A DNA stretch of 64,000 nucleotides from Candidatus Zixiibacteriota bacterium (GTDB lineage Bacteria > RBG-13-66-14 > B26-G2 > WVWN01). Below are positions 3,472-16,846 of the stretch, piece by piece (position 1 is the first letter of the stretch; each line of letters opens with the position of its first letter). The position numbers were made by a program, and so were the translations under genes. The DNA lies in assembly GCA_011773985.1 (NCBI GenBank), contig WVWN01000001.1:74984-138983 (forward strand), written 5' to 3'. A model generated the notes under the pieces. That model was not told the origin of the DNA and ran no database searches. It saw only the letters and a list, made by a program, of their open reading frames with translations.

Positions 3472-4182
3472 TCAGCTGATTAAACCCAGCCAGTCCCGAA
3501 TTAGGAACTGAAGGCGGCCGATGAGCAAGCTAACGCGCGCCATGACCGTATAACCGAAGGAGGCGCCGAAGCCGATCATCAGGAAGACGATACCCACCTT
3601 GGCGACGCCGCCCGCGAAGCCTCTGTGCTCCGTCGAGAAGAAGAAGTACGTCAGCGTGCACACGACGCCCGCGATCATTAGCGGTCCCGATACCGCCAGG
3701 ACGAACGGCCCCCACGCGGGGCGGGTGAAGAAGTCGCCCATGAGTACGAGCGAGAAGACCGGGTTCCCGCCCTTCATGAAAGTCCCGTAAACCTGGGCCA
3801 GGATGAACGCCTGCATGTAACCCGTGATGACAATCCCCTGGAAAGCGCCGAAGTAGAAGCCGAAGGCCCAGCGGCTGATCCAGCCGATCTTGGGGATGAG
3901 CCGCGTGAGGAGGAGCAAGCCCAGGGTCCCCGGCACCAACGCGGCCAGGTTGCCGGTGAACCGCCCCTCCGTGAGTAGGATGCCGAAGCCGTCCCGGAGC
4001 GGGATCAATAAGTTGGGCCACATATTATTCCAAAAATAGATGACGAAGAGGTACCCGGCCGAGACGCCTACGAGCAGGTGTTCCGCGAACTTGTAGAACG
4101 GGTTGTCCTTGTACAGGAACGAGTAAATACACAGCGTCAACAACGCGGCGATCCATATGAAGATATCGGTCGAGAGATGCAT
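3472..4182 (-). CDS. Polytopic membrane protein, cassette copy 1 (gene D)
   Basis: 236 aa, several hydrophobic helices; shares the LCI-SFLYKDNPFYKFAE-L-VGVSAG stretch with 11206..11937. Confidence 0.85.
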   Translation of the reverse strand: MHLSTDIFIWIAALLTLCIYSFLYKDNPFYKFAEHLLVGVSAGYLFVIYFWNNMWPNLLIPLRDGFGILLTEGRFTGNLAALVPGTLGLLLLTRLIPKIGWISRWAFGFYFGAFQGIVITGYMQAFILAQVYGTFMKGGNPVFSLVLMGDFFTRPAWGPFVLAVSGPLMIAGVVCTLTYFFFSTEHRGFAGGVAKVGIVFLMIGFGASFGYTVMARVSLLIGRLQFLIRDWLGLIS

Positions 4183-4217: not shown

Positions 4218-5060
4218 TTAGCGGGCGCTCGCCTCGCTTCGCTTCTTCGCGCGTCGCATGAAAATGTACGCGACGTTTCCCAGGATGATAAATACGACGA
4301 TCAAGAGGTGAACGATGGTCTGAGCGTCCATCCCCTTAAGGCCGTCGGCGGGCCGGTCGATGAGTTTCTCGTATTCCGCGGCGCCCTTAAGGCCCCCGAC
4401 GAGGCCGACGAGTTGGCCCGTCTGGAGGTAGGGGTAGAAGTCGGCGGCCATTACGGCCGTCACGCCCGCGGCCACTTTCTGGCCGTACCGTTCGTGGGCG
4501 TAGGCTACCCAATACTCCGGGATTACCGTCCCGGAGATTGACACGACGAGGCCAACGTCGTTGTAGTTCTTGACGTTCTTCATCAGCGGGATCTCGTCCA
4601 GCGGCGTGTTGTAGTAGTCGCGGGGGTAGCTGATCCGGAAATCCTGGCCCAACGAGAGGATAACTGCCGACACGCCGACTTTGTAGCCCAGGAGGGTGTA
4701 GTCGACATCTCTTTGGGCGCCCATCTCCTCGGCGACTTTGCTCGTTATATCGACGGCAAGGCCGGGGCCGCCCGGTACCAGGACCGTTACGATCACCGGC
4801 AATTTCCGCGCGATACAGTGACGCAAGAGCGCGATCGTCATCGGCCCGAGCTCCGGCTGGGTGGCGGGGTCGTAGTCGACCGAGATCAACACCGGCGTCC
4901 CGGGTTTCAAACTTTCGATTTCGTTGTAAACATTTTCCACCGGCGGCGACGTCGTCACGGCGAGGCCCAGCGGGAAGACCAGCGGGACCGCTACGGCCAG
5001 CGCGACGAGGATGAAAATCCAACGCCGGTCAATATAGAGGAATTTTTCGAATATATTCAA
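4218..5060 (-). CDS. Membrane protein with N- and C-terminal TMs and a central domain, cassette copy 1 (gene C)
   Basis: 280 aa; shares FFPYLQTGQLVGL-GGLKGAAEYE-like and MDAQ(T/S)I(V/A)HL-IVVFII stretches with 11974..12840. Confidence 0.85.
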   Translation of the reverse strand: MNIFEKFLYIDRRWIFILVALAVAVPLVFPLGLAVTTSPPVENVYNEIESLKPGTPVLISVDYDPATQPELGPMTIALLRHCIARKLPVIVTVLVPGGPGLAVDITSKVAEEMGAQRDVDYTLLGYKVGVSAVILSLGQDFRISYPRDYYNTPLDEIPLMKNVKNYNDVGLVVSISGTVIPEYWVAYAHERYGQKVAAGVTAVMAADFYPYLQTGQLVGLVGGLKGAAEYEKLIDRPADGLKGMDAQTIVHLLIVVFIILGNVAYIFMRRAKKRSEASAR

Positions 5061-5091: not shown

Positions 5092-5757
5092 TTAGTCGCC
5101 GCCTCCCAACCATGAGCGTTCGATTCCCAGAATGATCTTGAGCGCGGTCGATATCGCGCCCAGGCCGATGCCGATCATGATGCCGCGCTTTGCCGCCATG
5201 TTGGGATAATCCAAAACCCATTCTGCGAAGCCGGGGAGCCAGGATTCAACCCACGTCGAAAAGCCGAGCGACAAGTCCTTGAAGATCGCGGCGAAGGATA
5301 CCCGCCCCAGCATGACCACGACTGCCGCGATCAAAAGCAGCGTGGCCTCCAGCGTCCGCGCCCGGAACGTCCGGAACGCGGCGGAGGCGATGTAGAACGC
5401 CAACAGCGAGAACATCGTCGCCTGCATCGGGATCTGTACGTAGTTATATAGGGTCATGAAGGGTTGGCCTTCGCTAATGCTCTCCGGGCCTTTCATGAAA
5501 CCGGTTACCAGGGAGAGGCCGAGGCCGGTAAGCGCCACGATGCTGTAAAGCCAGTCGCGGCGCCGGTACTGAACCTTTTGGATATGGAGTTTGATCAGGC
5601 TCAAGATCCCGAGGATGAGGGCGAACGTAAAGACGATGATCAGCCACCGGAGCATGTTCTCGAAGAGCCACTGCGAATAACGGTGCGGGATGAAGAACTG
5701 CACCGTCATGATGACGCCCATTATGAAGCAGATGGCGAGCGGTAGTTCTCTTCTCAT
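5092..5757 (-). CDS. Polytopic membrane protein, cassette copy 1 (gene B)
   Basis: 221 aa; shares [35 protein letters not shown]-type region with 12884..13528. Confidence 0.85.
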   Translation of the reverse strand: [221 protein letters not shown]

Positions 5758-5775: not shown

Positions 5776-6930
5776 TTAGCCGGCCCCGGTCTCGAAAAGC
5801 TTCGCGAAACCCGTTCCCAAATGTACCGATACGATCAGCAAGGCCGTGCCTATAACCATGGCGGTGATAATTACCGCCTTCGACCAATCCTGCCCCTTGA
5901 GGCTGCCCAGGAACAGGGGGTCGCGGCTCAGGTAGGCCGTCGCGGCGTAAAGTTCCTCGCCCATCAGCGTGTAATCGCACGCGGTGATGAAGAACGGTAG
6001 CTGCGTCACGCGGTCCGTGCCGGCGATCTGTATCGCGCCGGTGGCGGCGCCGGTCTCGGCCAGGATGAGCGATTCGGCATAGAACGCGCCCATGTAGAAG
6101 TTGGTCGCCGGCCTCTCGCGAACCATAATCCCGTCCACTGCGGCCACGTAGCCGAACTGCGACGTCGTAACGTAGAAGACCGAGTCCTCGTCGAAGGCGT
6201 CCGGTTTGCCCACCTCGGCGTAGGCTTCCCGGACCATCTCCTTCTCGACCATCATGACGATGGGGTCGTAGCAGGGCACGATGAGCGGCGTCTCGTACTC
6301 CGCGGTCTTCGTGGCCACCTTGGCCAGGATCGTCATCGCCGCGATAGTCGAGATTTCCGACGCGTCGCCGAGGCCCGTGACATACAGTATGGGCTTGCCC
6401 ATCTCCGTCGCGCGGCCGATGGCTTCGTCCACCGCCTCCAGGCCCGCGATCTTGCGGACGAAGAGCTCGGCGCCGCCTTTGGCGCGGTAGATGAAGAAGA
6501 CGATCACGGTCGTTACGAAGATGACGCCGACGAGGACGTTCGTTCGCCGGGTGTTGAACCACTGGCCGGAGGCCGCCGCCCCCGATACGCCCAGGACGAC
6601 GGGCGGCCCTTCGGCCGGGAGGGCGCGCACGCGGTACTCGTACGGGACGCCGTCTTCCGCTTCTTTATCCTGGTAGACGGCCTCGCCCGGCGTAATTTCG
6701 GCTATGGTCTCGAACGCTTCCTTGCCGGGGGCGCGCCGTTGGACGTCGTAGCCTTGGAAGCCCTCCTCTTTTTCCAGCGGCGACGCCAACCAGGTAATGT
6801 CTACGGCGCCGCCGGCGTCGTTGGGGACGTCGCGGGCGGTGACGGGAGGCTCGGCCTCTTCCGCCGCGGTTAACGCCGTCGCGGCGAAATAGAAGAGGAA
6901 AACTGTAAACGCGCGCGTTAGATTTTTCAT
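5776..6930 (-). CDS. Secreted Fn3-domain protein with TM and conserved C-terminal domain (resembles DUF6754), cassette copy 1 (gene A)
   Basis: 384 aa; signal peptide, Fn3-like region, TM, then FGYVA-VDGIM-RE-PA-NFY-G-FYAESLILAETG--GAIQIAGT shared with 13581..14756. Confidence 0.8.
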   Translation of the reverse strand: MKNLTRAFTVFLFYFAATALTAAEEAEPPVTARDVPNDAGGAVDITWLASPLEKEEGFQGYDVQRRAPGKEAFETIAEITPGEAVYQDKEAEDGVPYEYRVRALPAEGPPVVLGVSGAAASGQWFNTRRTNVLVGVIFVTTVIVFFIYRAKGGAELFVRKIAGLEAVDEAIGRATEMGKPILYVTGLGDASEISTIAAMTILAKVATKTAEYETPLIVPCYDPIVMMVEKEMVREAYAEVGKPDAFDEDSVFYVTTSQFGYVAAVDGIMVRERPATNFYMGAFYAESLILAETGAATGAIQIAGTDRVTQLPFFITACDYTLMGEELYAATAYLSRDPLFLGSLKGQDWSKAVIITAMVIGTALLIVSVHLGTGFAKLFETGAG

Positions 6931-6951: not shown

Positions 6952-8088
6952 TTAGTCCCGGCCCGACTCGATGAGCTCGACGTTGGCGCGCGGGATTACG
7001 TCTTCGCCGCCGTCGTCGAACTTGACGCCGAGAACGCGGACTTTGGCCTCCGTATCCAAGACTTGCAATTCCACCGGCAGCGACGTGACTTCGCCCAGCT
7101 TGCCGAAGTACGGCTCGCGGATGACGCGTACGCGCGAGCCCACCTCCAGGTTGGCCTCGTCGCCTTCCTCGCTCCCCACCCTCGCCACGACCTTGCCCGG
7201 GTTAGGTATAATTATCTCCGGCCTTATTACTCCCGCGCGGATTTGGGTGGCGCCGTTGACGGAGGCCAACATCCCCTCGCGGGATGTCAGCAACTCGAAG
7301 GTGGCCTGTGCCATCGGCATCTCGCCGAAGCCTTCCGTAACCACGAGGGTGACGCCCAACGTCTCGTGGCCGGTGATCGCGACGCCGAGGTCGAAGCCCA
7401 GGAAGCTGCGCAGGTCGCGGTCGTGGAAGCCGCCCGCGATGACGGCCACCGCGCCCACCTCGATCGCCTTCTTGAGCGCCGCCGCGGTGGCGAGGCTGCC
7501 CCCCAGTATTACCTTGCCTTCGCACTCCGGGCCGATGTCGTCCGCGCCGAGCACGTCGCGCGCCGCGGACGCGACCGTCTTCATCTCGCCGTACGCCTCG
7601 CCGCCGATGCCGAAGATCCCCTGGACGAAGGTGCCGACGCATTCCACGTCGACGCCCTCGTTGCCTATGACCTCCACGACCTCCCCGTCGACGTACGCCG
7701 TAACGGAGACCGCCATGGGCGGCTCGCGGATGATGACCTGGCCCGTAACGTCGGACACCGTCTCGACGGTCCCCTTGACGGGGGACGCGGCTTTCGACGT
7801 GAAGAGGCCGAAGAGCTGTTTCATCCGGGCTATTACCTGGCCTTCCTCGACCTTCGCCCCCTTCTCGAGCAACATGTACTTGGGAATGTCCTCGGGCGGC
7901 ATGCCCAGCTTGTTGGCTACGTTCACCGTCTCGACGTTGCCCGGTAAAAACGTGCGCGCCACGACGTCGAGGGCTTTAACTTTATCGCCCTTTTTTACGA
8001 GCACCTCGCCCGCGAGCGGAAGACGTCGCTGTTTGCGCACCAGCGCCGTCTCGACGACTTTTAGGCCCGGGGTGTAAGCGTGGACCAT
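6952..8088 (-). CDS. Protein with N-terminal sandwich-hybrid (biotinyl/lipoyl-like) motifs and C-terminal KOW-like segment
   Basis: 378 aa; LPLAGEVLVKKGDKVKALDVVA and VEEGQVIAR near N-term; VGSRVRVIREPYFGKLGEVTSLP near C-term. Confidence 0.7.
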   Translation of the reverse strand: MVHAYTPGLKVVETALVRKQRRLPLAGEVLVKKGDKVKALDVVARTFLPGNVETVNVANKLGMPPEDIPKYMLLEKGAKVEEGQVIARMKQLFGLFTSKAASPVKGTVETVSDVTGQVIIREPPMAVSVTAYVDGEVVEVIGNEGVDVECVGTFVQGIFGIGGEAYGEMKTVASAARDVLGADDIGPECEGKVILGGSLATAAALKKAIEVGAVAVIAGGFHDRDLRSFLGFDLGVAITGHETLGVTLVVTEGFGEMPMAQATFELLTSREGMLASVNGATQIRAGVIRPEIIIPNPGKVVARVGSEEGDEANLEVGSRVRVIREPYFGKLGEVTSLPVELQVLDTEAKVRVLGVKFDDGGEDVIPRANVELIESGRD

Positions 8089-8161: not shown

Positions 8162-8860
8162 TCAAGGCCTCGCCGAGCCGGCGTCGGTCAGCGTCATCGC
8201 AACTTTCCCGAGCGGCGTTCGCCCCAACCTTTTAACCAGCGAACCGTCTTCGGCGAACCAGAAGGTCGCGTCGCCGAAGCACCCTTTGGCCTGAATTACT
8301 TTCGTCGGGACGATCTCGCCCGACACCTCGAGCGTCTGGTCAGCGACGTACTCTAACTTCGTTTTGCGGACCTTCCCCGTCCGGAGCTGGAGGGCCTGAA
8401 CCTCGATTCTACTCCCCGGCGCCGCGAGCCTCGCCAACGCCTCCTCGGCCTCGACCATGCCGAACGACGCCCCGGGGACGTCTATCGTCTCGACCTTATC
8501 ACCTTTGGTTATGGTTACGTTGAAACCTTCCTTCGTCCGCGTGGCTTTGACGGCCGTGGTTTTGCCCTTTTCCGTAACCGCGGAGGCGTAGTAGACGAGG
8601 GTGCCGCCGCTGAGGTAACGGTCGGCGGTCCATTTGAGTGAGAATTGCCCCATCTTATCGCGCCGGGCTTCCGTTACCGCGGTGAACCGCTGGACGACGG
8701 CACTCCCCAGGTTGGCGGTGCTTTCGACGACGTGGCAGTAACCGATATGTTCGTCGCCGTCGTATACGGCGTACCACCAGTCGGCGGCCGCGCGCGCCGG
8801 CGCGGCCACGACGAGCGCCGAGGCCAGAAACGCGAGTAACCGCTTGCGTCGCGACGTCAT
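8162..8860 (-). CDS. Secreted protein of unknown function within the GlmL-like run
   Basis: MTSRRKRLLAFLASALVVAAPARAAADWW signal peptide; start trimmed to 8860. Confidence 0.7.
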   Translation of the reverse strand: MTSRRKRLLAFLASALVVAAPARAAADWWYAVYDGDEHIGYCHVVESTANLGSAVVQRFTAVTEARRDKMGQFSLKWTADRYLSGGTLVYYASAVTEKGKTTAVKATRTKEGFNVTITKGDKVETIDVPGASFGMVEAEEALARLAAPGSRIEVQALQLRTGKVRKTKLEYVADQTLEVSGEIVPTKVIQAKGCFGDATFWFAEDGSLVKRLGRTPLGKVAMTLTDAGSARP

Positions 8861-8932
8861 AACGTCTCTCCCTTCGGCGAGCCGAGTTGCGTCCGTCCGC
8901 AATACCCCCGGCGTTTTACGTTCGATTTCAAT

Positions 8933-10759
8933 CTATGCCGTTCGTTGTTCGCCATATCCGGGGTAAACGTTGAGCGCCGTAAGCCAACGTCCTAGCGCGT
9001 CGACGCGCGCGGTCTCATCTTCGGGCAGATGTAGCGGCCGGCCCCGGCAGTCGAGGATGACGCCCACGACGCCCCCCTCGAGTTCCGTCTCGATGGCTTG
9101 GCCCTTCCCTTCGCCGAGGTCGAAAGGCCGTACGGGGTCCAGTTTGGCCACGACCTTCTCGCCCACGCCCAGCGGCAAGAGGACCATCTCGCCGTAGCCT
9201 ATCTCCTCTTCGACGTGTCCACGGCCCGGCCAGTCGGCCGTGATCCTAAGGCAAGCGTGGCCCGCCTTGCCGTTGCCGATGGGAGCGACGCACGAGCCGA
9301 GACGCACCAGGCAATCGCGCTCGAATACCTGGGTGGCGGCAACCGGCATTACGGTGGAGAGGACGCCGAGCTGGGGCATCATGAATATCGAGTCCACGGC
9401 GAGGAAGGTCACGGCCTCCGGGCGGAAGCCGTCTATGAGCATCATCGCGGCCTGTACCCGCCGCGGCGCGTGGGAGAGCACGCCGCCGGAGCCGACCAGC
9501 ATGTCGAGCGTCAGCATGTTGACGAGCGTCTCGCCGGTCATGGTCTGGCTGAACGCGTCCGATATGGTCCGCTCCTGCTGGATGCCCTTCAGGCCCACGG
9601 CGAGGCCTTTGTGTTGGACGAACGCGAGGCGGAGCGCCTCCCGCGCGATGGCCTGCTCGATGATGAGCTCGGTCAGCGTCTGCGGTATCGTCGTGGGCCT
9701 TATCATCTTGTTGCGGATGCGGTCGCGCAGGGCGCGTTCGTCGAGCTCGGCTTTGGGAAGGGGGACCCACCGTATTATGTCCGCCAAGCCCGCCTCCGCG
9801 AGGACGTTGGAGATGGAGTAGGACAGCCCCAAGTTGGCGGAGACGGTTCGGTTGAAGACTTTCTGGAAGACGGAGAAGATGTCGGTCGTGGCGCCGCCGA
9901 CGTCGACGCCGATAACGTCCAACCGCTCCCGTTCGGCTATGGTCTGAATTATGGCGCCGACCGCGGCGGGCGTGGGCATAATGGGCACCGCGGTCCAGGA
10001 CATGAGCTTGGAGTACCCCGGCGCCTGGGCCATGACGTGTTCCATGAAGAGGTTGTGGATCTCGTGCCTCGCCGGGCCGAGGTTCTCGCGCTCGAGCACG
10101 GGCCTGATGTTGTCGACGACGTAGAGGGAGGTTTTTTCGCCCAGCGTCTGTTCGATATTGGGCCGGACGTCTTTGTTGCCGGCGTAGATGACGGGAAGTT
10201 GGAAGCTCGCGCCGAAGCGCGGCCTCGGGTCCGCGGCGCCGATGAGCTCCCCCAACTCGACGACGTGACTTACCGTTCCCCCGTCGACGCCCCCCGACAG
10301 GAGTATCATGTCGGGGCGCAGGCGTCGGATGGCCTCTATTTTCTGGTGCGGGAGGCGGCCGTCGTTGGAGGCCAACACGTCCATGACGATCGCGCCGGCG
10401 CCGAGCGCCGCGCGCTGCGCCGACTCCGCGGTCATGGTCTTGACGACCCCCGCGACCATCATCTGCAGGCCGCCGCCGGCCGAGGAGGTGGACATGTAGA
10501 TGTCGGCGCCCTCGTTCTCGTCCTCGACTACGAGGACCCTGTCGTCGGCTATGAGTTTGCGGCCGGTCAATTCCTCGACCTCGCCCACGGCGTTCAGGAC
10601 GCCGCGCGTCACGTCCTCGGCCGGTTTCTCGACGGTGGTGGGGGCCTCGCCCCGCACTTTGAGGCGGTACTCGTCGCCTTCCTTTTGTATTAGGATGGCC
10701 TTCGTCGTCGTACTGCCGCAATCGGTGGCCAGTATGGTTTTTACGTTCGAGAGCTCCAT
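8933..10759 (-). CDS. GlmL/MutL-family ASKHA ATPase
   Basis: 608 aa; ILATDCGSTTTKAILI phosphate-1 motif, ILLSGGVDGG, DVIGVDVGGATTDIFSVF. Confidence 0.88.
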   Translation of the reverse strand: MELSNVKTILATDCGSTTTKAILIQKEGDEYRLKVRGEAPTTVEKPAEDVTRGVLNAVGEVEELTGRKLIADDRVLVVEDENEGADIYMSTSSAGGGLQMMVAGVVKTMTAESAQRAALGAGAIVMDVLASNDGRLPHQKIEAIRRLRPDMILLSGGVDGGTVSHVVELGELIGAADPRPRFGASFQLPVIYAGNKDVRPNIEQTLGEKTSLYVVDNIRPVLERENLGPARHEIHNLFMEHVMAQAPGYSKLMSWTAVPIMPTPAAVGAIIQTIAERERLDVIGVDVGGATTDIFSVFQKVFNRTVSANLGLSYSISNVLAEAGLADIIRWVPLPKAELDERALRDRIRNKMIRPTTIPQTLTELIIEQAIAREALRLAFVQHKGLAVGLKGIQQERTISDAFSQTMTGETLVNMLTLDMLVGSGGVLSHAPRRVQAAMMLIDGFRPEAVTFLAVDSIFMMPQLGVLSTVMPVAATQVFERDCLVRLGSCVAPIGNGKAGHACLRITADWPGRGHVEEEIGYGEMVLLPLGVGEKVVAKLDPVRPFDLGEGKGQAIETELEGGVVGVILDCRGRPLHLPEDETARVDALGRWLTALNVYPGYGEQRTA

Positions 10760-10806: not shown

Positions 10807-11157
10807 TTACTTTCTTTTCTTACCTCTCTTTTTTTCCTTCATCTCGGCCCGCCACTCGGCGTCGTAACGCTCGATGGCCGACAACAGGCGGTCGACGTTT
10901 TCGCGTTCCTCGAGCGCGAGCCGCACGTCGTTGTACGCTCGCACGTTGAAGATCGACCGGACCAGCGGGTCGAAGAAGACCATCACCTGCGAGCCGATGA
11001 ACGAGAGGGGCTTAGCGGACTCCAAAAAGAAGATCGCCGGCGCGGTTAGGCTCCGTTCCACGATGGCGCGGGCGATCTTTTCGATTAGTTCGTCGCGTCG
11101 TTCGGGCGATAGCTCGCCGTATTCCGGTTGGTCCGCCGTGTCAAATAGGCGAGGCAT
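10807..11157 (-). CDS. Conserved small hypothetical protein with basic C-terminus
   Basis: 116 aa ORF between GlmL-like and membrane cassette 2; ends KEKKRGKKRK. Confidence 0.6.
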   Translation of the reverse strand: MPRLFDTADQPEYGELSPERRDELIEKIARAIVERSLTAPAIFFLESAKPLSFIGSQVMVFFDPLVRSIFNVRAYNDVRLALEERENVDRLLSAIERYDAEWRAEMKEKKRGKKRK

Positions 11158-11205: not shown

Positions 11206-11937
11206 CTATAATAAACCCAACGAGGCCAGGGCCCCCTGTATCGGTGCGATGACCGCGGGCCGGAGCCAGCCGTCGATTAGGAACTCCATCCGGCCTATGA
11301 GGAGCGAGATACGCGCCATAACCGTGTAGCCGAAGGCGGCGCCGAAGGAGACCATCAGGAACCAGATGCCCAGACGCGCCGTACTGCCCAGCACGCCCTT
11401 ATGTTCTTTCGAGAAATAGAAATATACGAGCGCGCTCACGACGCCCACTATCAGGAGCGTGTTGCTTACGGAGGTCGGCCAGTCGAAGTGCTGCCCGCCG
11501 GGGCCCTCGGTTATCACGACCGGCGATAGTTTTACCGTCCCCCAAATTTGGTAGATGCAGTTCGCCTGGAGATAGACTATGAACATCAGGCCCGCGCCCA
11601 GGCCGACGGAGAACGCGATGCCGTACCGCGAGACCCACGCCGCTTTGGGAAAGAAGCGGAACAACATCGTAACCCCCAACAGGCCGGCGATTATCGTTAG
11701 CCAACGAAAGTCCAGACGGCCTTCCAACAAGAGCACGACGAAGGCGCCTTTGAGCGGGTCGATCAGGTTCGGGAGCAGCAGGTTGTGGTAATTGTACGCG
11801 ATCCAGAAACCCGCGGAGACGCCTACGAATAGATATTCCGCGAATTTATAAAACGGGTTGTCCTTATACAGAAACGAGAGTATGCACAGCGTCAAAAGCG
11901 CCGCGATCCACGTCCCGAGCAAAGTTAGGCCGTCCAT
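11206..11937 (-). CDS. Polytopic membrane protein, cassette copy 2 (gene D)
   Basis: 243 aa; paralog of 3472..4182. Confidence 0.85.
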   Translation of the reverse strand: MDGLTLLGTWIAALLTLCILSFLYKDNPFYKFAEYLFVGVSAGFWIAYNYHNLLLPNLIDPLKGAFVVLLLEGRLDFRWLTIIAGLLGVTMLFRFFPKAAWVSRYGIAFSVGLGAGLMFIVYLQANCIYQIWGTVKLSPVVITEGPGGQHFDWPTSVSNTLLIVGVVSALVYFYFSKEHKGVLGSTARLGIWFLMVSFGAAFGYTVMARISLLIGRMEFLIDGWLRPAVIAPIQGALASLGLL

Positions 11938-11973: not shown

Positions 11974-12840
11974 TTAAGGCGACGCGGCGGGACCGGTCCT
12001 CGGGCCTTCACGTTTCTCCTCGCGCTGGCGGCGTAATATGAAGTAGGAGATATTCGCGAATATTATGAAAACAATTATTACGAGGTGCGCGATCGACTGC
12101 GCGTCCATGCGGCGCGAAGCTTTGCCCGCGTACGCTAACACGCTTTCGTATTCCGCGGCGCCCTTGAGGCCTCCCAACAGGCCGACGAGTTGGCCCGTCT
12201 GCAGGTAGGGGAAGAACTGCGGCGCCGATACCGCGGTACAGCCGCCGGCCACCTTCCGCTGGTACAACGCGTTGGCCACGCGAACCCACGCCGGGATGCC
12301 CGGGTCGCCCGCCGAGAGGTCCATCACGAGGTCGATGTCCTTCAGGTTGCGGACCTTGGCCAGTATGGCTAAGCCGGCGGTAGGCTCGCCGGCCATGTCT
12401 TTGGGGAATACTTCCCCCAAAGACGCCCCGAGCGACTTTATGACGATGTCGCCGCCCGGTTTGTAGCCCAGGTTAACGTAATCGCGGCCGTATTCGAGGT
12501 CGTATTCCTTCCCCACTTCGGCCAAAGCGCTCACCGCCATCTGGGCGCCTTGCGGCCAGAGCGCCATAATTATGACCTTGTGTTTTTTGGTGAAGCAGTG
12601 GCGGAGGAAGGCCAGGGCCATGGGATGGACCTCGGGTGCCGCGGCCGGGTCGTAGTCGAACGCGACCAGGACGTTCGAGCCCGGCGGCAGGTTCTCCACC
12701 TCTTCGTAAATGCTTTCCGTTTGGGGCGTTACCTTGACGCGCATCCCGAGCGGGAGTAAGAGCGGGATCACGACGGCCACGGCGATCACCAGGAAAATAA
12801 TTCGGCGGTCAATATCGGCCAACCAACGGACGAATTTCAT
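11974..12840 (-). CDS. Membrane protein with N- and C-terminal TMs, cassette copy 2 (gene C)
   Basis: Paralog of 4218..5060; start trimmed to MKFVRWLADIDRRIIF. Confidence 0.85.
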   Translation of the reverse strand: MKFVRWLADIDRRIIFLVIAVAVVIPLLLPLGMRVKVTPQTESIYEEVENLPPGSNVLVAFDYDPAAAPEVHPMALAFLRHCFTKKHKVIIMALWPQGAQMAVSALAEVGKEYDLEYGRDYVNLGYKPGGDIVIKSLGASLGEVFPKDMAGEPTAGLAILAKVRNLKDIDLVMDLSAGDPGIPAWVRVANALYQRKVAGGCTAVSAPQFFPYLQTGQLVGLLGGLKGAAEYESVLAYAGKASRRMDAQSIAHLVIIVFIIFANISYFILRRQREEKREGPRTGPAASP

Positions 12841-12883
12841 CGAGCGTAACCTCCCGGCGCCTGAGACGAACCGCTCACGATGT

Positions 12884-13528
12884 CTACTCCTCTCCAAGGT
12901 ACGACCGCTCGATGCCGAGCAGTATCCTGAGCGACGTCGAGACCACGCCCAGCGACGCGCCGATCAATATGGCCCGCTGCCCGGCGGTGTTGAAGATGTT
13001 CATTATTCTATCCTTGAGCCAGTCGGGCGTGAGGAAAACCAACGAATCCGGCCACCACGCCGGGACCCAGGCCGAACCTATCGGTACTTGCCCGAGCATC
13101 ACGACGACGGCCGCGACGAGCAGTAGCGTCGCGTCGACGGTTCGGGCCCGGAAAGCCCGGTACGCCGCCGAGGCGACGAAAAACGCCAAAAGCGCGAATA
13201 CCGTGGACGACATGGGGAAGATCAAGTAGTTGAACAGCCAGTCGAAGACGGTCCCTTCTTTGATACCCCAGCCTATGCCGATTATGGCCATCGCGAAGAG
13301 GCCGGCGATGAGGGCGAAGGAATAGGGCCAATCGGCGCGGCGGTAGCGAATCTTCATATAGTTGATGCGGAGGAGGTTAAACGCCCCCACTAATATTGCG
13401 AAAGCGATCACCACCAGGTACCATTTCTGGATTTGGCTCGCGACGTCGCGGAGGGCGGGCACGAAGAACTCGAGGATTATTGTTACCCCCGCGACGAAGG
13501 CCACGATCATAGGTATCTCGCGCCGCAT
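12884..13528 (-). CDS. Polytopic membrane protein, cassette copy 2 (gene B)
   Basis: 214 aa; paralog of 5092..5757. Confidence 0.85.
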   Translation of the reverse strand: MRREIPMIVAFVAGVTIILEFFVPALRDVASQIQKWYLVVIAFAILVGAFNLLRINYMKIRYRRADWPYSFALIAGLFAMAIIGIGWGIKEGTVFDWLFNYLIFPMSSTVFALLAFFVASAAYRAFRARTVDATLLLVAAVVVMLGQVPIGSAWVPAWWPDSLVFLTPDWLKDRIMNIFNTAGQRAILIGASLGVVSTSLRILLGIERSYLGEE

Positions 13529-13580: not shown

Positions 13581-14756
13581 TTACTTCACCACGAAGAGTT
13601 GCTCGAGGGCGATCGACCGCCCGAAAAGTTCGAAGCCGAATTGCGCCAGAAACGCGGTAACGACGCCTACGATTATGGAGATCAATATTATGACTTTACC
13701 CAGGTCCTGGCCGACGAGGCTCCCCAGGAGCCGAGGCTCCCGACTGAGGTAGGCGCTCGCCGCGAATAGCTCCTCGCCGATCAGCGTATAGTCGCACGCC
13801 GCGATGAAGAAGGGGAGTTGCGAGGGCATCGCCGTCCCGGCTATTTGGATAGCGCCGACGGAGTGGCCGGTCTCGGCCAGGATTAGCGATTCGGCGTAGA
13901 ACGTACCGAGGTAAAAGTTGGCCGCGGGCTTCTCCCGCAACATAATGCCGTCTACGCCGGCGACGTAGCCGAACTGGTCGTCCGTCAGGTACCGGACGTT
14001 CTCGCGACGGTACGCGTCCGGCCGGCCCGCCTCGAGGTAAGCTTCTTTGACGACTTCTTGCGCGGTGGACATCACCAGCGAACGCGAGCACGGCACGAGT
14101 AAGGCGGCGTCGTACTCGGCTATCATAGTGGCTACCCTTCCCAGTATCGTTACCGCGGCGATGGTCTGGATGTCGTCAATGTCGGCTATCCCCGGGACGT
14201 AGAGGACCGGTTTGCCCATTTCCGTGGCCCGCCCCACCGCTTCCTGCACCGCCTCCAGGCCCGCGATGCGACGGATGAAGAGCTCTTTGCCCGCCCGTGC
14301 TTGCGAGATAAAATACAGCACGAATGCCGCCAGCACGACGGAGGCGACGAGCATATTGAGCCGGTCCGGGTGGAACCATTCGGCGGTCGCCTTGACCGGC
14401 CCAGCCGGCGCCGCGTCCGTGCTCATCCTCTCGCCGCGTGCACGAACCTTGTAGAAATATTCGACGCCGTTCTCGGCTTCTTCGTCCGTAAACTCATAAT
14501 TTTCCTTGCCGGATTCGACCTCGCCCAATCTCTCGTACTCGCCCGCGGCGCGCGTAGCCCGCCAAACCTCGTAAGCGAGGACTTGCACTTTCCGCCCGGC
14601 TTCGTCCGGCGAAGGCTGCCAGGTTAGGGTGATCGAGCTGCCCGCGTCGAGGGGCGTGTCCCGGGCCGTAACACCCTCCGCCGCTTGCAACATTTGGCCG
14701 AAAGCCGGGGCCGCTAAGGCCATAATGATAAACACGCCCAAAGGGACCGACTTCAT
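13581..14756 (-). CDS. Secreted Fn3-domain protein with TM and conserved C-terminal domain (resembles DUF6754), cassette copy 2 (gene A)
   Basis: 391 aa; paralog of 5776..6930. Confidence 0.8.
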   Translation of the reverse strand: MKSVPLGVFIIMALAAPAFGQMLQAAEGVTARDTPLDAGSSITLTWQPSPDEAGRKVQVLAYEVWRATRAAGEYERLGEVESGKENYEFTDEEAENGVEYFYKVRARGERMSTDAAPAGPVKATAEWFHPDRLNMLVASVVLAAFVLYFISQARAGKELFIRRIAGLEAVQEAVGRATEMGKPVLYVPGIADIDDIQTIAAVTILGRVATMIAEYDAALLVPCSRSLVMSTAQEVVKEAYLEAGRPDAYRRENVRYLTDDQFGYVAGVDGIMLREKPAANFYLGTFYAESLILAETGHSVGAIQIAGTAMPSQLPFFIAACDYTLIGEELFAASAYLSREPRLLGSLVGQDLGKVIILISIIVGVVTAFLAQFGFELFGRSIALEQLFVVK

Positions 14757-15050: not shown

Positions 15051-15473
15051 ATGGCAAACAAACCTGACGACCGGCGCTTCGCAGACGTCGAGTTCGACTC
15101 CTATATTTCCGACGGGGCCGAAGTCCACGGCTCTTATCGGGGCAAGGCCAATCTGCTTATCGCCGGCGTTATCCAAGGCGACTTGGAAGTCGACGGGACC
15201 GTGATGGTTGCGACGCCCGCCGCCGTGAACGGCGACGTCTCGGGCATTAACGTCATCGTGTCCGGGCGGGTTGAGGGCGACGTACGGGCGCGCAAGGTCG
15301 CGGAGGTCCGTCGCAAGGCGGTCATAAAAGGCAGCGTCGTGGCTCGTGAGGTATTTATCGCGGTGGGCGCCCAGGTGGGGGGCGACATTATCGCCCACGG
15401 CAAACGGGGGGTGACGTCGTTCAGGGAACGCCGTCCCGCCCCCGCGGGCGAACCCGGGCCTAAGCAACCTTAA
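15051..15473 (+). CDS. Bactofilin family polymer-forming protein
   Basis: 140 aa; repeated G-V-GDV/GDL pattern (VIQGDLEVDG, VNGDVSG, VEGDVRARK). Confidence 0.88.
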   Translation: MANKPDDRRFADVEFDSYISDGAEVHGSYRGKANLLIAGVIQGDLEVDGTVMVATPAAVNGDVSGINVIVSGRVEGDVRARKVAEVRRKAVIKGSVVAREVFIAVGAQVGGDIIAHGKRGVTSFRERRPAPAGEPGPKQP

Positions 15474-15499
15474 ACCCTCCAAATGGCGAGGAGAACGCG

Positions 15500-16846
15500 T
15501 TGGCTTTCAAACGTGCGGATGCGGAGAAAATAGTCGAGCGGGCGCTCCAGGCCTCCCGGGCGGACGAGACGCTGGTCCTGCTCGAGTTTTACCGGCGCGC
15601 GGTGACGCGGTTCGGCGAGAACGAGATACACCAGAACGTGGACGAGAGCCACGTAGATCTTACGGTTCAGGCCGCGGTGGGTAAGAAGGTGGGCGTTGCC
15701 CGGGGCAACGTTAACCGGGAGGGCGACACCAAAAAACTCGCCGAAACGGCCTTCGCCATCGCCCGCGTCCAGGGCGAGAAGGAAGACTATGCCGGCCTCG
15801 CCGAGCCGAGCGCGGTCCCCGCCGTTGGAAGCTACAGCGACGTTACGGCGAACTACACGCCGGACCAGCGAGCCGACGCCGCGGGCGAAGTCATCGCCGC
15901 GGCCAAGGCCGCCAAGATGAAGGCCGCGGGGTCGTTCCGAACGGAGGGGGGCGCCCTTACGGTGGCCAACTCCAAAGGCGTTATGGTTCACCACCCCTAC
16001 ACGGAGGCGGAGCTGGTGGGCGTCGTCATGGCCGAAGACGCGAGCGGTTACTGCGAGGGCGGCGGGTGGGACGCTACGCGTATCGACGTCGCCGCCCTGG
16101 CCGAGGACGCGGTCCGCCGCGCCGAGCTCTCGAGAGTGCCGCGCGACGTCGAGCCCGGCCAATACGACCTCGTCGTCGAACCCTACGCGGTCGCCGAGCT
16201 TTTCACCTGGCTCGCGTTCGTGGTGTTCGACACGCGCGCCTACCAGGAAGGTCGGAGCTTGCTCTCGAAGCGTATGGGTGAAAAGATAATGGGGGATAAT
16301 ATCACCATCGTCGACGACGGCCTCTCCCCCGAAACCGTACCGCTGCCCTTCGACTTCGAGGGCGTTCCCCGCCAGCGCGTGACGTTGGTCGAGAAGGGCG
16401 TCGCGAGCGGGTTGTGTTACGACCTCGCGACCGCGGCGAAGGAGGCCAAGAAGACCACGGGCCACGCCTTGCCGCCCGGCGCCGGCTACGGCCCCTTCCC
16501 TCTAAACCTTGCGCTCGAGGCGGGCGATTCGTCGGTGGAAGAGATGCTCGCGTCGATGGAGCGGGGGCTTTACGCTACGCGCTTCCACTACGTCAACGGC
16601 TTCGTGGAACCGATGCAAGCCGTTTTTACGGGGATGACGCGGGACGGAACGTTCTGGGTCGAGGGCGGCGAGATTAAATACGGCGTGAAGAATCTCCGCT
16701 GGACCGAGAGTATGTTGCGCGCGTTCTCGAACGTGCGGACGCTCGGCCGGGATCGGCGCCTGCTGGGCGTAACGAACGGCATAAGGACCGTTTCGCCGGC
16801 CGTCTATTTTAAAGATTTCACTTTCACCGGGACGACGGAGCATTAA
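15500..16846 (+). CDS. TldD/PmbA family protein
   Basis: 448 aa; DAEKIVERAL..ENEIHQNV N-terminus and FVEPMQAVFTGMTRDGTFWVEGGEIKYGVKNLR C-terminus. Confidence 0.88.
   Translation: MAFKRADAEKIVERALQASRADETLVLLEFYRRAVTRFGENEIHQNVDESHVDLTVQAAVGKKVGVARGNVNREGDTKKLAETAFAIARVQGEKEDYAGLAEPSAVPAVGSYSDVTANYTPDQRADAAGEVIAAAKAAKMKAAGSFRTEGGALTVANSKGVMVHHPYTEAELVGVVMAEDASGYCEGGGWDATRIDVAALAEDAVRRAELSRVPRDVEPGQYDLVVEPYAVAELFTWLAFVVFDTRAYQEGRSLLSKRMGEKIMGDNITIVDDGLSPETVPLPFDFEGVPRQRVTLVEKGVASGLCYDLATAAKEAKKTTGHALPPGAGYGPFPLNLALEAGDSSVEEMLASMERGLYATRFHYVNGFVEPMQAVFTGMTRDGTFWVEGGEIKYGVKNLRWTESMLRAFSNVRTLGRDRRLLGVTNGIRTVSPAVYFKDFTFTGTTEH

Follow-up and report, generated by a model that had tools for sequence, protein, structure and literature searches.

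A branch of MutL/GlmL-family ASKHA ATPases that is separate from mutase-type GlmL and associated with a conserved membrane-protein cassette

Proteins of the MutL/GlmL family have been described as chaperones for the reactivation of glutamate mutase, with the diol dehydratase reactivase cited as the model (PMC4682846). The reactivase role of GlmL itself appears to rest on analogy. The diol dehydratase reactivating factors likewise form a class of ASKHA ATPases that are thought to remodel a client complex. GlmL, an accessory protein of glutamate/methylaspartate mutase (NF040745, PF13941), goes together with GlmS/GlmE, whereas the GlmL-related protein Or-4 (NF040744) is assigned to ornithine degradation. 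The protein analysed here has the ASKHA core of ~450 residues in common with GlmL, including three motifs and the GGxDGG loop, and falls into the same ASKHA family as Or-4. Unlike GlmL, it is accompanied by neither GlmS nor GlmE. A literature search (mostly outside subscription journals) on DUF6754, PF13941, the non-mutase branch and the cassette retrieved no paper. The protein family is known and its role as a mutase helper has been described by analogy, whereas no description of the branch or the cassette was found in the literature covered.

The window, i.e. the whole stretch of 64,000 nucleotides that was analysed (G000:C11:74984-138983), belongs to a Candidatus Zixiibacteriota genome (G000) of 2.68 Mb in 91 contigs that is 90.6% complete. 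Its minus strand carries an intact open reading frame at exactly 8933-10759 (10759→8933), which encodes a MutL protein of 608 aa, the single MutL found in this genome; the earlier note had given no strand. The gene lies within a series of twelve successive minus-strand genes with gaps of -14 to 74 bp (ORF coordinates), arranged in the order DUF6754a-TM5a-LPa-TM7a-small-MutL-DUF6134-BSH-DUF6754b-TM5b-LPb-TM7b. The earlier note had described the neighbours as membrane proteins, which they mostly are; the cassette is real and, with its twelve same-strand genes, larger than first described. Within it, a membrane module of four genes (DUF6754–TM5–LP–TM7) occurs twice, on either side of a small-MutL-BSH core:

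13581..14756, minus strand: DUF6754 copy a, with signal peptide, extracytoplasmic FN3 region, TM segment, predicted cytoplasmic Rossmann-like DUF6754 domain and second TM segment (PF20539, 415 bits; AF2; FN3 matches)
12884..13528, minus strand: TM5 copy a, polytopic membrane protein with 5-6 TM segments (hydropathy; family A7; no Pfam family)
11974..12897, minus strand: LP copy a, with N- and C-terminal TM segments and an extracytoplasmic domain of ~200 aa, start codon uncertain (hydropathy; family A3; no Pfam or PDB match)
11206..11937, minus strand: TM7 copy a, polytopic membrane protein with 5-6 TM segments (hydropathy; family A8; no Pfam family)
10807..11157, minus strand: small conserved protein with an APAIFFLES-KPL-FIGSQ core and a basic tail, just upstream of MutL (so placed in 47/72 loci; no Pfam family)
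8933..10759, minus strand: MutL/GlmL-family ASKHA ATPase of the non-mutase branch (PF13941; below GlmL and Or-4 cut-offs; motifs in 96 relatives; tree)
8162..8902, minus strand: DUF6134 secreted protein between MutL and BSH, probably with an internal Met start (PF19630, 29.6 bits, cut-off 27.9)
6952..8088, minus strand: BSH, a putative adaptor with N-terminal barrel-sandwich-hybrid, central PA/swivelling-like and C-terminal KOW/SH3-like domains (weak RnfC_N and Biotin_lipoyl matches; AF2; Foldseek)
5776..6930, minus strand: DUF6754 copy b (PF20539, 400 bits)
5092..5757, minus strand: TM5 copy b (45% identical to copy a)
4218..5060, minus strand: LP copy b (44% identical to copy a)
3472..4182, minus strand: TM7 copy b (51% identical to copy a)

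The DUF6134 protein is a genus-level accessory that was found in two sister genomes; in Zixibacteria-type loci (L091:2657-3454 and five others), its place between MutL and BSH is taken by a different secreted protein of ~265 aa. Divergently from the cassette, the plus strand of the window (15051-16846) encodes a bactofilin followed by a PmbA/TldD-type protein, and ORFs of similar size adjoin the cassette in sister genomes. In the sister genome G003 (L048:3093-10695), MutL is split into two opposed parts around BSH and module b, which would fit either an inversion or an assembly error. A known anti-phage defence system was rejected, because eight cassette proteins gave no match to the PADLOC models.

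Membership of the window protein in the PF13941 (MutL) superfamily is clear from its score of 417 bits (E=1e-124, cut-off 27), with the full model covered (positions 1-450/450). It scored below the curated cut-offs of all three narrower NCBIfam models, i.e. GlmL (NF040745; 223.6 bits, cut-off 475), Or-4 (NF040744; 205 bits, cut-off 600) and glmL_fam, the GlmL subfamily (171 bits, cut-off 204). The earlier assignment to the GlmL family thus holds at the level of PF13941 and fails for GlmL proper. Both nucleotide-binding motifs quoted previously, DCGSTTTKAIL and DVGGATTDIF, were recovered in the translated ORF. The phosphate-1 (DCGSTTTK), phosphate-2 (DVGGATTD) and adenosine (GSGGxLSHAP) motifs are conserved across 96 branch relatives, largely at 90% or more of their residues, so that the active site appears intact and nucleotide binding is likely. 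Homologues with 48-89% identity to the window protein occur in many phyla, so that a chance ORF is excluded.

For phylogenetic placement, a maximum-likelihood tree was calculated from 57 MutLs, comprising 9 mutase-adjacent or other sequences and 48 sequences from cassettes, fusions and divergent cassettes (unrooted; three very long rows left out). The two sets were separated at 100/100 support, with long branches on the mutase side, and a topology in which the window protein was forced to join the mutase-adjacent sequences was rejected (AU p=7.6e-51). The MutL of L200, which comes from the Or-4 side of the tree and adjoins a B12 aminomutase, lies opposite the window protein across the 100/100 branch, whereas the neighbours of the latter are membrane proteins. 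The branch signatures agree with the tree. Where GlmL carries RTVEGDLGVRVSA, the window protein has RTVSANLGMSYS instead, and it contains both an NKMIRPTTIP segment and a C-terminal extension of ~120 residues with a DxRGRP block, neither of which is found in true GlmL. The window MutL therefore belongs to a branch separate from mutase-type GlmL.

The small-MutL-BSH core and the four-gene module are also found together in other phyla (L030, L033, L035, L047), and the cassette is present in many of the 80 named loci, including those from Eisenbacteria, WOR-3, TA06, Fermentibacteria, Zixibacteria, Nitrospira, Brocadia, Gemmatimonadetes, Latescibacteria, Calditrichaeota and more. Among the named loci with enough flank, BSH lies directly downstream of MutL in 46/61, in many phyla, and the small protein upstream of it in 47/72; the module order DUF6754-TM5-LP-TM7 is exact in 42/48 cases. 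In genomes where BSH is not adjacent, its gene is usually located at another site (G005, G017, G022, G029, G052), and it is also present in the divergent-cassette genomes G073, G214 and G344. It was absent from the mutase-only genomes that were searched (G091, G120, G208, G336) and from six genomes with neither module nor branch MutL. A paralogous MutL group scores mostly 430-510 bits against the branch profile; most of its members have ~860-1040 aa and carry a BSH fused behind MutL. This Rosetta-stone evidence favours MutL and BSH forming a physical unit. All of the fusion-group genomes (G004, G009, G012, G094, G119, G128, G161, G253, G265, G299, G352, G364) contain a branch MutL as well.

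Across 386 genomes, DUF6754 was detected in 109 and branch MutL in 101, with both present in 98, DUF6754 alone in 11, MutL alone in 3 and neither in 274 (Fisher p about 1e-74, a value that ignores shared ancestry). The branch thus tracks the membrane cassette, and MutL is tied genetically to BSH, by adjacency or fusion, and co-occurs with the four-protein membrane module. The exceptions are of several kinds. Among the genomes with DUF6754 alone, G190 is probably affected by a contig break, and the DUF6754 proteins of G073, G214, G230 and G344 are weak-scoring and divergent. The fairly complete genomes G006 and G020 contain modules and BSH with no detected MutL, and are counter-examples unless the assemblies miss the gene; in G071 and G090, the module was detected with neither BSH nor MutL. 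These four genomes indicate that MutL may be dispensable. Conversely, G100 and G286 have a branch MutL with no detected BSH or DUF6754, and the Poribacteria MutLs are the main group without an adjacent cassette. The number of modules per genome ranges from 1 to 6, and nearly all genomes have one branch MutL, with two in G192 and G325 (at most three candidates scored per genome).

Several further features of these loci were recorded. Glycine-cleavage genes (gcvPB family at 19 loci, gcvT at 6, plus gcvH-sized ORFs) often precede the cassette in WOR-3, TA06, Eisenbacteria, Fermentibacteria and related groups (L054, L055, L065, L103, L107, others), so that the system may be connected with glycine or one-carbon metabolism. 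Because of this synteny, BSH was considered as a lipoyl or biotin carrier; this was rejected, as a carrier lysine is absent among the invariant columns. A membrane protein family of ~153 aa is encoded at 17 loci (L114:9181-9642 and 16 others), at some of them just upstream of the small gene, and may be a further component. In the divergent cassette L204:2746-18885, which adjoins Wzz-, DUF4012- and polysaccharide-synthesis-like genes, LP forms part of a 1508-aa fusion protein.

The AF2 model of BSH (pLDDT 86.6) was combined with Pfam and Foldseek searches. Its N-terminus is assigned to the barrel-sandwich fold by weak Pfam matches to RnfC_N and Biotin_lipoyl; in one fused homologue (L206), the RnfC_N match exceeds the cut-off (29.6 bits), accompanied by weak NQRA_N and Biotin_lipoyl matches. 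In contrast to RnfC/NqrA, BSH lacks invariant Fe-S cysteines, carries PA-like and KOW-like domains, and has no Rnf/Nqr membrane subunits with it. The C-terminal KOW/SH3-like domain resembles SPT5 and NusG, with Foldseek matches to KOW/SPT5, and the central domain shows partial Foldseek similarity to PA domains, a weak assignment. DUF6754a was modelled (pLDDT 90.6) with FN3 outside, a TM segment, an alternating alpha/beta Rossmann-like domain and a second TM segment; from the signal peptide and charge, we infer that the DUF6754 domain faces the cytoplasm. Foldseek matches to DUF6754 were mainly to FN3. The residues G189, G284, E289, Q304, G307, Q313, G327, E328 and E329 of DUF6754a are invariant or nearly so and map to predicted strands 1, 4, 5 and 6 or immediately behind them, and these conserved Glu/Gln/Gly positions at the C-terminal ends of modelled strands suggest a putative ligand-binding or active site. 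Pfam searches with TM5, TM7, LP and the small protein matched no family, and a PDB sequence search with LP gave no match. LP as a paralogue of DUF6754 was considered and found no support.

Tentatively, and at a level just short of probable, we interpret the window MutL as a cytoplasmic ASKHA ATPase that acts together with BSH as a reactivase-like ATPase/adaptor on a membrane complex and not on a B12 mutase. Gene order and fusion lead us to infer that MutL and BSH may form a shared ATP-driven unit. This unit would bind its client, change shape upon ATP binding and hydrolysis, and thereby assemble, reset or release the client, by analogy with the action presumed for ASKHA reactivases on B12 enzymes. 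Here it would have the membrane module as its client, with docking via the cytoplasmic Rossmann-like DUF6754 domain, and the membrane-side work would be done by TM5, TM7 and the extracytoplasmic parts of LP and FN3; an enzyme, a transporter or an envelope-assembly device are candidate kinds. MutL would thus differ from the B12-enzyme reactivases in having a membrane module, and no B12 enzyme, as its presumed client; a PDB sequence search with the window MutL gave no match. ATP hydrolysis is not universal in the group, as judged from the degenerate phosphate-2 motifs of MutL in the divergent cassettes L204 and L205. A broader proposal, to which we give somewhat less credence, is that MutL-BSH would be the engine of a new class of membrane machine, in which one ASKHA-adaptor unit serves several interchangeable four-protein modules in roughly one in four of the genomes sampled, across many candidate phyla, and which has no match among the known transporter, secretion, respiratory and signalling systems.

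Two readings compete seriously with this client-remodelling role, namely a machine for transport or envelope work and a switch in signalling. In the former, MutL and BSH would energise a transporter or a secretion/envelope machine, with ATP hydrolysis moving a substrate through TM5/TM7 and with LP and FN3 outside. Such a machine would fit the composition of each module (two polytopic and two bitopic proteins with large extracytoplasmic domains), the presence of several differing modules with one ATPase in a genome, and the position of a divergent cassette beside Wzz-, DUF4012- and polysaccharide-synthesis-like genes. We consider it unlikely, although a real contender, since direct powering of transport by an ASKHA protein is not known to us, TM5, TM7 and LP match no transporter family, and inspection of the flanks of solitary modules revealed no common cargo gene.

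Slightly less likely again is a sensor or regulator, in which FN3 and LP would sense outside signals and DUF6754 with MutL-BSH would relay them inside, MutL serving as a nucleotide switch. An FN3 region that varies outside while the inner domain is conserved would suit a receptor, as would the NusG/SPT5-like KOW/SH3 domain of BSH and the degenerate ATPase motifs of some members; however, a receptor would need less than a set of four co-conserved membrane proteins that includes two polytopic ones, and neither an output domain nor a regulator is linked.

A very improbable account, which is largely refuted, is that the window MutL is an ordinary helper of a B12 mutase encoded elsewhere and that the membrane genes are bystanders. 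It draws on PF13941 membership and on the methylmalonyl-CoA mutase (MCM) encoded in the genome. B12-binding, GlmE and MeaB proteins were therefore sought in G000, and GlmE and MCM in the 386 genomes; the outcome led to rejection of the B12 link. The profile search for GlmE (PF06368) gave no match in G000 (90.6% complete). Ten B12-binding domain matches were found there, all outside the window, in line with the earlier statement that the window holds no mutase or B12-binding protein. One of the two strongest is the MCM small subunit, encoded between the large subunit and carboxyltransferase genes, and the other a MetH-like protein; the weaker matches fall within ORFs of ~470-530 aa, which by size we take to be putative radical-SAM proteins. 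MCM was the sole B12 mutase identified, and the gene for its chaperone MeaB is located shortly upstream on the same contig (C55), so that MCM does not need the window MutL. Among the 101 branch-MutL genomes of the 386-genome set, 35 lack any MCM domain and 100 lack a strong GlmE; the exception, G132, contains a separate GlmL adjoining its GlmE in addition to the branch MutL. High-scoring GlmE occurred in seven of the 386 genomes, five of which have a low-scoring (GlmL-type) MutL. Some cassette genomes gave weak PF06368 matches (about 17-27 bits), which we disregarded, because several overlap MCM genes (e.g. G336, G205, G066). The separation from mutase-adjacent MutLs in the tree adds to this, and a B12 role is nearly excluded.

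The least probable account, that DUF6754 or LP is a highly diverged B12-binding domain performing B12-like chemistry at the membrane, could appeal to the predicted Rossmann/flavodoxin-like alternating fold of DUF6754, of the same broad class as B12-binding domains, but profile comparison with GlmS/MCM B12 domains gave no support (probability 0.1% for DUF6754 and 1% for LP) and the DxHxxG motif is absent from the consensus.

A role away from mutase chemistry, as the earlier note had proposed, is supported by association, through the tree split, the lack of GlmE and the co-occurrence with the cassette; neither of the two outcomes that the note had named as refuting it was obtained. As the name of the Pfam family derives from glutamate mutase, a glutamate fermentation route could wrongly be attributed to genomes like G000, from which it is absent. 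The analysis defines a conserved system of seven families, present in Nitrospira, Brocadia, Gemmatimonadota, Zixibacteria, Latescibacteria, WOR-3 and others, in which four families (small, TM5, LP, TM7) lack a Pfam match, a fifth (BSH) has weak matches and a sixth is DUF6754. With this list of partners, experiments can address what the non-mutase MutL branch does. The cassette suggests that reactivase-type ASKHA ATPases can serve membrane complexes, and the co-occurrence of the branch with membrane proteins is indicative of a membrane machine, undescribed and probably driven by ATP, in many bacterial phyla about which little is known.

Two further MutL arrangements were observed. At L215:8164-11573, a very divergent pair of MutL and BSH, with a KOW motif, lies amid housekeeping genes, with no module detected nearby. 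L029:8450-12036 represents a third MutL context, in which a high-scoring PF13941 MutL, with no mutase seen, is encoded between two luciferase-like monooxygenase genes.
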